DNA from: an uncultured Pseudomonadales bacterium
GTDB taxonomy: Bacteria > Pseudomonadota > Gammaproteobacteria > Pseudomonadales > Cellvibrionaceae
Length of the DNA: 8,029 nucleotides
NCBI GenBank assembly: GCA_938048505.1
Contig: CALIUX010000156.1
Span: 1 to 8,029 of the forward strand
Direction of reading: 5' to 3'
The translations under genes and the position numbers were made by a program. Positions 5,304-8,029 of the stretch are shown here, piece by piece. Numbering within the stretch: the first letter of the stretch is position 1; each line of letters begins with the position of its first letter. The notes beneath the pieces were generated by a model. That model was not told the origin of the DNA. It was given only the letters and a program-made list of their open reading frames with translations, and searched no databases.

Positions 5304-5774
5304 CTAATGCTTATGATAAGGGTGGCCGGCTAATAATGTCCATGCGCGGTAGAGCTGCTCTACCCACACAACACGTACAAGCGGGTGTGGCATGGTCAAC
5401 GCTGAGAGGGACCATTTAAGATTCGCGCGCTGTAGTACAGCTTGAGACAAACCATCAGGGCCACCAATCACAAAACTAAGGTTATGGCCTGACATACGCC
5501 AATCTGCTAAATTAGACGATAATGTCTCTGTGCTCCACGGTTTGCCCAAGACATCCAAAGCAATGACAAAATCTGTTTTATCAATAGCCTGTAAAATTGC
5601 TTTGCTTTCATGCTCTATCGCTTGCTTGGCCGATGTGTTTTTTGCGCGATGGCCAGGCGCTAGTTCAATCAACTGCACTGCCAACTCTTTAGGCAAACGT
5701 TTGGCGTATTCGGCATAACCTTTTTGTACCCAATCAGGCATTTTTGTGCCCACTGCAATTAACTGAACTTTCAT
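5304..5774 (-). CDS. rlmH: 23S rRNA (pseudouridine-1915-N3)-methyltransferase RlmH
   Basis: RlmH is a SPOUT-superfamily enzyme that uses S-adenosylmethionine to methylate pseudouridine 1915 of 23S rRNA in helix 69 of assembled 70S ribosomes. The product is 156 residues, one more than E. coli RlmH. The knotted S-adenosylmethionine site is visible as FVIALD followed by [11 protein letters not shown] (about 100-110). The C-terminal signature [20 protein letters not shown] and terminal HPYHKH are family features needed for substrate binding. The ATG at 5774 is preceded by GAGAG only one base away, a poor arrangement, but it aligns with the family N-terminus ([11 protein letters not shown]). It sits between rsfS (118-base gap) and mrdA (120-base gap), both in the usual order. 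No lesion is visible. Confidence 0.96.
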
Positions 5775-5892: not shown

Positions 5893-6243
5893 CTATTCAG
5901 CCTGGTCGGGGATTTGGTTCACGGGCGATTTAGACCACAGCTTTTCAAGTTCGTAGAAATTACGCATGCTGGGCAACATCACATGCACCACCACTGAACC
6001 ATAATCAACCAAGACCCATTCACCTTGATCCATCCCCTCAACACCAATGGCTCGCACACCGACTTTTTTGGCTTCGTCCAAGACATTGTTGGCTAATGAT
6101 TTTACCTGACGGTTCGATGCGCCAGAGCAAATAATCAGTGTATCGGCAACGTCGGATAAGCCAATAACATCAAGCTCAACAATATTTTCGCCTTTAACAT
6201 CATCAAGGGCATTTTTAATAAGATCTTTTAAAGCTAATTTCAT
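5893..6243 (-). CDS. rsfS: Ribosomal silencing factor RsfS
   Basis: RsfS (Iojap/YbeB family) binds ribosomal protein uL14 on the 50S subunit and blocks joining with the 30S subunit when nutrients are short. The product is 116 residues, slightly longer than the 105 of E. coli because of a short C-terminal tail. Family sequence is continuous: ENIVELDVIGLSDVADTLII, CSGASNRQVKSLA, GVEGMDQGEWVLVDYGSVVV and HVMLPSMRNFYELEKLWS. The start is ATG at 6243, giving the standard N-terminus (MKLALKDLIKNALDD). No strong ribosome binding site is visible. It is normally translated right after nadD; here the upstream gene is broken and separated by 141 bases of repetitive AT-rich DNA, so this gene may rely on its own promoter or on read-through. 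No lesion is visible. Confidence 0.95.
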   Translation of the reverse strand: MKLALKDLIKNALDDVKGENIVELDVIGLSDVADTLIICSGASNRQVKSLANNVLDEAKKVGVRAIGVEGMDQGEWVLVDYGSVVVHVMLPSMRNFYELEKLWSKSPVNQIPDQAE

Positions 6244-6367: not shown

Positions 6368-6395
6368 TGACCTATTTTTCTGACCTATCTTTTTC
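6368..6395. repeat. Tandem duplication of 13 and 15 bases over the nadD stop codon
   Basis: TGACCTATTTTTC (6368-6380) is followed directly by TGACCTATCTTTTTC (6381-6395), the same unit with two extra bases. The second copy contains the stop codon of the NadD C-terminal frame (6387-6385), so the duplication touches the end of the decayed gene. Confidence 0.7.
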
Positions 6396-6898
6396 CGTAT
6401 AATGTATTGTCATGGATATACCGCTCAACGGATTCCGGTAATAACCCCAACACCGTTTGTTTTTGATGTAATTTAGCCCGTAAGCCAGTAAATCTTGCCA
6501 GCGATACCACGATGTCAAACTGGCGAAGCTGTCTAATCCCATTAACCAAACAATAGACGCATCTGGGCCCAACTGCTCTCGCAAATAGCGCAAAGTATGA
6601 AAAGTGTAAGATTTTTCGGTGCGGGATAACTCAAACGCTTCGATAGACCACTGACACTGCGTATCACGCTGCAATGCTTTGCTAACACATGCAGCATGTC
6701 TAAACGATGTTGCGTAGTGGTACTGGGTTGCTGCTTATGCGGTGTGACATGGCACGGAACAAAGCTGGCATGACTTGCAGACAACGCCTCACGGCCTTCA
6801 ACTAGCATGCGGATATGGCCGTTGTGAACGGGGTCAAATGTACCCCCTAAGTAAACATGACAATCTCGCAAACTATCCAGCCTACTTATTAAGCCCAT
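6385..6898 (-). pseudogene. nadD: Nicotinate-mononucleotide adenylyltransferase remnant: frameshift plus internal deletion
   Basis: NadD joins ATP and nicotinate mononucleotide to make deamido-NAD. Three reading frames carry NadD sequence in the right order. Frame A (6898 to about 6680) has the nucleotide-binding motif LGGTFDPVHNGHIR and runs to HRLDMLHVLA. Frame B (about 6680 to 6486) continues with KALQRDTQCQWSIEAFELSR, the motif KSYTFHTLR, and SIVWLMGLDSF up to WQDLL. Frame C (about 6489 to the TAG at 6387-6385) has TGLRAKLHQ and the family C-terminus GLLPESVERYIHDNTLYG. The first shift is explained by loss of one A at 6678-6680. The second joins WQDLL to TGLR, where a normal NadD of about 213 residues has some 50-60 more residues, including the Ser of the ISxTxxR motif. 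The remnant totals about 172 codons. It sits in nadD's normal place after proA and before rsfS. No single frame gives a full enzyme. Confidence 0.92.
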
Positions 6899-7048: not shown

Positions 7049-8029
7049 CTAGGTACGAATATGACCATCACCAAAAACAATCCACTTTTGCGATGTCAGG
7101 CCTTCTAGCCCTACAGGTCCGCGCGCATGAATTTTATCAGTTGAAATGCCAATTTCGGCGCCCAACCCGTACTCAAAACCATCTGCAAAACGCGTCGAAG
7201 CATTAACCATCACGGAACTTGAATCCACTTCATGTAAGAACCTGCGCGAAGTGGCATAATTATTCGTCACTATCGACTCGGTATGTTGTGAGCTATACGT
7301 GTTGATATGATCAATCGCTTCATCGACACCTTGCACCACTTTTATCGACAACACCGGCGCCAAGTATTCCGTCGCCCAATCGTCTTGGGTTGCTGCAACC
7401 GCACCCGAAATGATCTGACATGTTGCATCACACCCTCGCAACTCAACACCCTTTTCAAGGTAAGCTTGCGCCAAACGAGGCAATACTTGTGCAGCCACGC
7501 CTTGATCGACCAATAAAGTTTCCATTGCATTACACACGCCATAGCGATGCGTTTTAGAATTCAATGCAATATCAAACGCTTTATCTAAGTCAGCATCCAC
7601 ATCGATATAGACATGGCAAATACCATCAAGGTGTTTAATAACCGGTACAGTGGCCTCACGTGAAATACGCTCAATCAAGCCTTTGCCACCACGCGGTACA
7701 ATCACATCAATATGCTGACTATCCGTAATGAGTGCACCCACTGCCGCACGGTCAGTGGTTTGAATCACCTGCACACACGCCTCGGGTAACCCAACCTCTT
7801 TGAGGCCAACAGCAATGGCTTTTGCAATCGCTTGATTCGAATGAATCGCTTCACTCCCGCCACGCAATACCGCTGCGTTACCAGACTTCAAACATAAACT
7901 CGCTGCATCAATCGTAACATTAGGGCGCGATTCATAAATAATGCCCACCACACCCAATGGCACACGCATTTTGCCTAATTGAATACCGCTTGGGCGATAG
8001 TTCATATCCGTAATTTCACCGCAAGGATC
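7049..8029 (-). CDS. proA: Gamma-glutamyl phosphate reductase, N-terminus cut by the window edge
   Basis: ProA reduces gamma-glutamyl phosphate to glutamate semialdehyde with NADPH, the second step of proline synthesis from glutamate, in the cytoplasm. The 326 visible residues are open to the right edge; about 90-100 N-terminal residues of a normal 415-420 residue protein lie outside. Family motifs are continuous: [58 protein letters not shown], the catalytic-cysteine motif [15 protein letters not shown] (Cys codon 7534-7532) and near the end [30 protein letters not shown]. It ends at the family position ([12 protein letters not shown]). An ATG at 8005 is internal, since the reading frame and homologous sequence continue upstream of it. 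It lies 150 bases upstream of nadD, its usual neighbour. No lesion is visible. Confidence 0.96.

Follow-up and report, generated by a model that had tools for sequence, protein, structure and literature searches.

The window considered here is a stretch of 8,029 nucleotides, positions 1 to 8,029 of contig CALIUX010000156.1 (assembly GCA_938048505.1), from an uncultured Pseudomonadales bacterium of the family Cellvibrionaceae, a marine organism resembling Marinagarivorans. It contains the remains of nadD, the housekeeping gene for the conversion of nicotinate mononucleotide (NaMN) to nicotinate adenine dinucleotide (NaAD) in the synthesis of nicotinamide adenine dinucleotide (NAD). The gene is broken, and an intact homologue termed NadD2, encoded elsewhere in the same genome in a cluster with nrtR, pncA and pncB, is with high probability the supplier of the NaMN-to-NaAD step, which is predicted to make nadD dispensable. 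It is very likely that this salvage-cluster homologue has taken the place of an essential housekeeping enzyme on more than one occasion, with the window representing a late stage of the process; the same takeover is predicted for dozens of related genomes in which NadD2 is present and no intact nadD was seen. Below, G000 denotes the genome of the window, G001, G002 and G003 its congeners, and other G and L numbers the genomes and loci compared with them.

The nadD remnant and the intact NadD2 gene

The NadD sequence at 6898-6385 on the minus strand is spread over three successive frames, as seen both in translation and by tblastn, and these frames contain 6, 9 and 6 stops. When NadD of the congener G003 (L026) and of two family members (L010 and L013) were used as tblastn queries against positions 7060-6244 of the minus strand, collinear pieces aligned from 6856 to 6677 (G003) or 6659 (L010, L013), at 6653-6483 (L013) and at 6489-6388 (L013). 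With L013 as the reference, the middle piece stops at around residue 123 and the C-terminal piece starts at around residue 184, leaving about 60 residues missing. The original prediction, made from the sequence alone, had described NadD in three frames with a shift near 6680, a junction near 6480-6491 and an internal deletion of about 50-60 residues; its coordinates are off by a few tens of bases at most. The GGTFDPVHNGH motif is kept whole in the N-terminal piece, in the canonical form GGTFDPxHxGH, and the C-terminal SSTxIR motif is mostly gone, being deleted up to TGLR, with the gap at the second junction ending inside the motif in the L013 alignment. The TIGR00482 model finds two partial matches in 6898-6385, which score 48.0 and 46.3 bits, lie in different frames and both fall short of its cut-off of 112.45 bits. 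This likeness to NadD is not due to chance, since the N-terminal piece alone matches G003 NadD with an E value of 2.7e-21 and the middle piece has a match of its own; the C-terminal piece is weak by itself (E 0.002, L013). The gene is a pseudogene, as had been proposed, in which the frame is shifted once and an internal stretch is deleted.

Three sequences in G000 match PF01467: the nadD remnant, a protein presumed to be RibF-like, and the 184-amino-acid NadD2 encoded on contig C95 (5048 bases; E 1.1e-15). The original prediction held that the cell must have another adenylyltransferase, either a second nadD or one of the NadM or NadR type, or else take up NAD precursors; the first of these is borne out by the NadD-like gene on C95, and no NadM or NadR type was present among the PF01467 matches. 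Compensation by such a protein was similarly rejected for G001 and G002 on their PF01467 matches. The frame of G000 NadD2 is intact and includes both nucleotidyltransferase motifs (GSAFNPPHMGH and IRSTYIR), the corresponding positions of which are invariant in an alignment of eight NadD2 rows. A profile of these eight proteins matches canonical NadD with a probability of 98.7%, aligning GSAFNPPHxGH and RSTxIR with GGTFDPxHxGH and SSTxIR. Across 103 unique NadD2 sequences, the pattern of the first motif was found in 59, that of the second in 96 and GPDN in 102; the seven sequences missing the second carry S(T/S)xxR variants, and the first accounts for 44 misses. The best NCBIfam match of G000 NadD2 is PRK08887/NF006479 (163.2 bits, E 5.1e-48; 153.5 bits for NadD2 of G002), and because this score lies under the curated cut-off of 164 the C95 protein is classed by its sequence as PRK08887-like, and not filed as a member of the family. 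The best solved-structure match to the eight-protein profile is PDB 3h05 (VPA0413; 2.6e-46), the chain of which is described as an uncharacterized protein; no mention of VPA0413 was found in the open-licence literature searched.

On C95, the genes are laid out divergently as ADP-ribose diphosphatase-nrtR-nadD2 and pncA-pncB, with the contig ending after pncB. The PncB protein passes NCBIfam cut-offs and the Nudix ADP-ribose diphosphatase-like protein passes a subfamily cut-off; the NrtR-like protein (Nudix plus NrtR winged helix) and the PncA-like protein are under the NCBIfam equivalog cut-offs and over those of Pfam. A second NadE follows pncB in G039 and G010, the G039 copy having a glutaminase-type domain and passing the PRK13981 NAD+ synthase cut-off. 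The order of the genes follows the Preiss-Handler route, which leads from nicotinamide through nicotinate, NaMN and NaAD to NAD.

A candidate NrtR operator, the palindrome TTGCYAWCNTNTTAGCAA, lies between nadD2 and pncA at 3088-3105 of L220 (G000) and 5807-5824 of L221 (G039). An intergenic palindrome is present in G000, G023 and G039, and the TTAGCAA part recurs in G010 and G019 with no palindrome under the rule used. Over 229 loci a literal form of the G000 palindrome has 7 matches, all in copies of the G000 and G039 clusters that overlap one another, and none was found near NadD2 of G002. Several further arrangements were observed. Of the two NadD2 genes in G039, one belongs to the salvage cluster with the second NadE (L221) and the other lies elsewhere (L222), and they are placed apart from each other in the NadD2 tree. 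Single frames of 397 and 436 amino acids in G025 (L177, 856-2046, minus) and G175 (L173, 1369-2676, plus) encode NadD2 together with an ADP-ribose diphosphatase-like Nudix domain, the Nudix half of the G025 protein passing its curated cut-off (250 vs 248 bits). In G001, no open frame of at least 110 amino acids exists at 4934-5578 of L224, where G002 has an ADP-ribose diphosphatase-like gene beside NadD2.

The G+C content of C95 is 0.448 vs 0.456 for the window, and their tetranucleotide correlation is 0.79, compared with 0.84 and 0.85 for two other G000 loci; C95 correlates at 0.79 and 0.80 with the similar clusters in G039 and G010. Wrong binning of C95 is not suggested, and a recent arrival of the salvage cluster in G000 is possible. 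The same 5 kb contig encodes, at 3-587 of L220 on the minus strand, a protein with the plasmid replication region DNA-binding domain KfrA_N, a hint of mobility.

Distribution of NadD2 and NadD

Both models were searched against each of 131 genomes of the family (130 at least 90% complete, and G000). NadD2 scores above 200 bits in nine (G000, G001, G002, G039 with two copies, G132, G140, G141, G010 and G023); ten further matches of 26-34 bits were set aside, each being to the genome's canonical NadD. Seven of the nine carriers have no NadD over the cut-off, with both genes found in G010 and G023, and 120 of the 122 non-carriers have such a NadD. The two remaining non-carriers have partial forms, a contig-end fragment in G127 and a 105-bit match in G145. 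Neither is accepted as a further loss of nadD, the G127 match starting 14 bases from the contig end and proA being split beside the short nadD of G145, where errors are likely; in the latter genome (L229, 1575-3556), nadD has no N-terminal part in frame and the proA sequence is divided between frames, probably as a result of draft-genome errors. None of the 131 genomes is without any trace of both genes. NadD2 thus tends strongly to exclude nadD in the family: Fisher's test, which ignores relatedness, gives p values of 3e-10 and, with the partial genes counted as absent, 1e-8.

Carriers beyond the family also tend to be without NadD. In the order, 391 genomes were searched for NadD2 at an E value of 1e-15 or better, and carriers were then searched for NadD: 30 carry NadD2, four of them family members, and all 26 of the others are without NadD over the cut-off. 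Among named carriers, for which 31 of 80 loci were taken and genome completeness is not stated, the figure is 26 of 31, including all ten Vibrionaceae and all six Alteromonadaceae. These 57 carrier entries include five repeats (G508, G512, G514, G516 and G530 being G275, G194, G486, G178 and G500) and two more that repeat the family genomes G023 and G039 (G506 and G507), such that there are 59 unique carriers overall; in 53 of these, G000 included, NadD is not over the cut-off. Outside this count, the 68% complete G019 has NadD2 and no NadD.

In G001, G002 and G132 the PF01467 proteins comprise only one of CoaD size, one of HldE size and NadD2, and in G030 only one of CoaD size and NadD2, the CoaD and HldE labels being assumed from length. 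All four genomes keep nadC and nadE, and therefore make NaMN and need NaAD, and the PF01467 search revealed no candidate NaMN or nicotinamide mononucleotide (NMN) adenylyltransferase in them other than NadD2. Because of this combination of a kept pathway and a single candidate, NadD2 would be the enzyme that adenylates NaMN. Across ten genomes searched, nadE was found in all, G000 included, and nadC in nine; the sole miss was in G000, where a coaD-like gene was not found either, and both absences are as expected since that bin is incomplete (72.5%).

It had also been suggested that the loss would suit a host-associated or reducing genome. This is not supported: the congeners have genomes of 4.1-5.3 Mb, nadC and nadE are kept in G001 and G002, and G000, smaller at 2.42 Mb for 72.5% completeness (around 3.3 Mb when scaled), is not symbiont-like.

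The proA-rsfS site, the order of events and alternative explanations

The neighbours of the remnant, named proA (partial), rsfS, rlmH, mrdA, rodA and mltB in the original prediction and presumed here to be so, are all open frames, in keeping with its claim that the loss is specific; proA, rsfS, rlmH and mrdA are 71-83% identical to their counterparts in the three congeners.

Table 1. Features of the nadD remnant and adjoining genes in the window
Feature	Positions	Strand	Evidence
nadD remnant, N-terminal piece, GGTFDPVHNGH intact	6659..6898	-	tblastn with G003 NadD, E 2.7e-21; within open reading frame 6542-6898
Frameshift zone between N-terminal and middle pieces	6653..6677	-	tblastn match moves to another frame
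nadD remnant, middle piece (MGLDSFASLTSWYRW segment)	6483..6653	-	tblastn with L013; TIGR00482 positions 53-119 at 6483-6692
Deletion junction, about 60 NadD residues missing, ends within SSTxIR	6483..6489	-	query coordinates of flanking tblastn pieces
nadD remnant, C-terminal piece and stop	6385..6489	-	tblastn with L013, E 0.002; frame translation
rsfS, intact, downstream	5893..6243	-	open reading frame; match in 11/11 and 21/21 genomes searched
proA 3' part, runs off window, intact, upstream	7049..8029	-	open frame; 81-83% identity to three congeners, 68-78% to 20 others
rlmH, intact	5304..5774	-	open reading frame; 74-75% identity to congeners

A single script was used to read 32 rsfS loci, 25 of which include proA and rsfS together; proA was not shown at four (G019, G035, G127 and G515) and rsfS was not returned under the script's length rule at three (G517, G534 and G522). 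Leaving aside G000 and G145, the gap between proA and the rsfS frame is 3-174 nucleotides in 12 of the 13 loci from genomes with NadD2 only (G001, G002, G141, G140, G039, G132, G031, G030, G194, G275, G175 and G178), and in the thirteenth, G025, the frames overlap by 37. The gap spans 617-794 nucleotides in the ten loci bearing nadD (G003, G010, G023, G011, G014, G505, G139, G131, G038 and G005), 754 nucleotides in G000, where the remnant lies, and 664 in G145. In G517, G534 and G522 (L197, L198 and L199; one Vibrio and two Alteromonadaceae), rsfS adjoins a presumably holA-like gene that precedes it, with no nadD between. The original prediction would have been undone by an intact nadD at this site in related strains; the outcome is mixed, as such a gene is there in G003 and nothing separates proA from rsfS in G001 and G002.

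The surviving pieces match NadD of G010 at 47% and 46% of residues, and the same parts of the intact G003 NadD match that G010 protein at 48% and 43%; third codon positions vary most, in comparisons of 53-60 codons per piece. As the remnant is conserved to much the same degree as an intact nadD, the loss is, with moderate confidence, probably recent, in support of the original suggestion that it was perhaps so. A tree built from four neighbouring proteins of 24 chosen genomes has six changes of nadD state, five of them forced by supported branches, and the genera g1, g12, g42 and g43 each include nadD-bearing and nadD-less species; G003 falls weakly beside G001 and G002 (86/57). In the NadD2 tree, 11 of 12 Cellvibrionaceae-type rows group together (97/97, midpoint root) with G132 elsewhere, and G000 NadD2 groups with one G039 copy (99/76, below star level). 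A single arrival of NadD2 in the genus, which was considered, does not follow from these placements.

As some genomes hold both genes, G000 holds NadD2 and a remnant, and others hold NadD2 alone, NadD2 would have come first and nadD would have decayed afterwards. NadD2 from the salvage cluster would take over the NaMN-to-NaAD step, and nadD, thus made dispensable, would then acquire the frameshift and the deletion. NrtR may control the cluster, by analogy with the same gene layout in Pseudomonas aeruginosa.

The possibility that the lesions are errors of assembly or sequencing in a draft bin that has a working nadD is considered very unlikely. The conservation of the surviving pieces would accord with it, as would the broken frames that G145 shows to occur in draft genomes. 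Set against this, the two lesions are of different kinds, one of them removing around 60 codons, in 8 kb where the other genes are open; the genome carries NadD2, a gene accompanied by the absence of NadD over the cut-off in most of its carriers; and two congeners have no nadD at this site. It is likewise improbable that NadD2 prefers NMN, such that NAD would be made by way of NMN, NadE would serve as the NMN synthetase and nadD would be left useless. This has a precedent in the replacement by NadM and re-purposed NadE described for Francisella (PMC3376133), and the NCBI name of the nearest family, nicotinate-nicotinamide nucleotide adenylyltransferase, covers both substrates; however, the gene neighbours of NadD2 include pncA- and pncB-like ones, the products of which lead to NaMN, NadD2 is accompanied in G039 and G010 by the second NadE, of which the G039 copy scores as an NAD+ synthase, and NadM profiles match it weakly. 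That NAD is no longer made from NaMN, with NAD or nicotinamide riboside imported, nadD decaying through disuse and NadD2 incidental, is scarcely credible: the failure to find nadC in G000 would favour it, but that genome is incomplete, retains an intact NadD2 as well as nadE and genes like pncA and pncB, and has no NadR-sized PF01467 protein that could be found, and the nadD-less G001 and G002 keep nadC.

Several points nonetheless weigh against the displacement of nadD by NadD2. The lesion is known from a single draft assembly without reads, and the missing 27% of G000 could hold another nadD. The score of G000 NadD2 misses the cut-off of the nearest curated family by 0.8 bits. Six of the 59 carriers (G010, G023, G505, G513, G515 and G520) keep canonical NadD, and NadD2 is therefore not sufficient for the loss of nadD; how often nadD is lost in genomes lacking NadD2 was measured only within the family. 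A paired tree test of six pairs gave a median p of 0.0625, not significant alone, with four or five pairs in the expected direction, none opposite and the rest equal. Lastly, the pnc genes are not beside NadD2 in G001 and G002, which limits the part of the displacement reading that concerns an ADP-ribose switch to clusters like that of G000. In its widest form, the proposal is that NadD2 is a full alternative to NadD, having displaced it independently at least four times in a single family and also in several further families of the Gammaproteobacteria, including Vibrionaceae, that the essential step moves out of a housekeeping operon to an ADP-ribose-sensing switch where NadD2 arrives with the NrtR cluster, and that the window shows the old gene dying; this is put forward tentatively, as a reading that falls somewhat short of probable.

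Relation to known systems

NadD is regarded as an almost universal enzyme and as a target for antibacterials. If the reading is true, a second type of enzyme able to replace it would break predictions of auxotrophy and essentiality that are based on nadD, and a role for NadD2 in this step would point to a likely function for the uncharacterized protein of structure 3h05. The series of genomes with nadD only, with both genes, with NadD2 and a nadD remnant, and with NadD2 only provides a stepwise view of the displacement of an essential gene. Displacement of NadD by NadD2 was not found described in the open-licence literature searched.

The cluster of the G000 type shares its gene set and divergent layout with a divergon of P. 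aeruginosa, the NadD2 proteins having been compared by layout only; no Pseudomonas name is present among the 120 listed of 882 homologues. The two differ in that the housekeeping nadD is dead in G000 and an ADP-ribose diphosphatase-like gene is attached, whereas the housekeeping nadD presumably remains in a P. aeruginosa strain deleted for nadD2. Such a strain has been made and grew, according to one report (PMC6363681). That report, with two others (PMC8865458, PMC11535050), describes the PA4916-PA4920 divergon as nadD2-nrtR opposite pncA-pncB1-nadE, with NrtR, which binds ADP-ribose, repressing both operons from the intergenic region and nadD2 assigned to NAD salvage pathway I.

Among curated families and solved structures, PRK08887/NF006479 and 3h05 remain the nearest relatives of NadD2. 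The NadM-Nudix proteins (PRK05379) join an adenylyltransferase to a Nudix domain, as do the single frames of G025 and G175, for which a parallel bifunctional enzyme is possible on the basis of their domains; they differ in that the adenylyltransferase half of the G025 protein matches PRK08887 and NadD models, with no PRK05379 model among those listed at an E value of 1e-5. That a homologue can displace an essential enzyme is already known from NadM, a distant homologue which stands in for NadD in Francisella (PMC3376133), and also in archaea. The likeness lies in the substitution itself; by contrast, NadM belongs to another family, and the displacing enzyme of G000 comes with NaMN-making salvage genes, such that the route through NaMN seems to have been kept.
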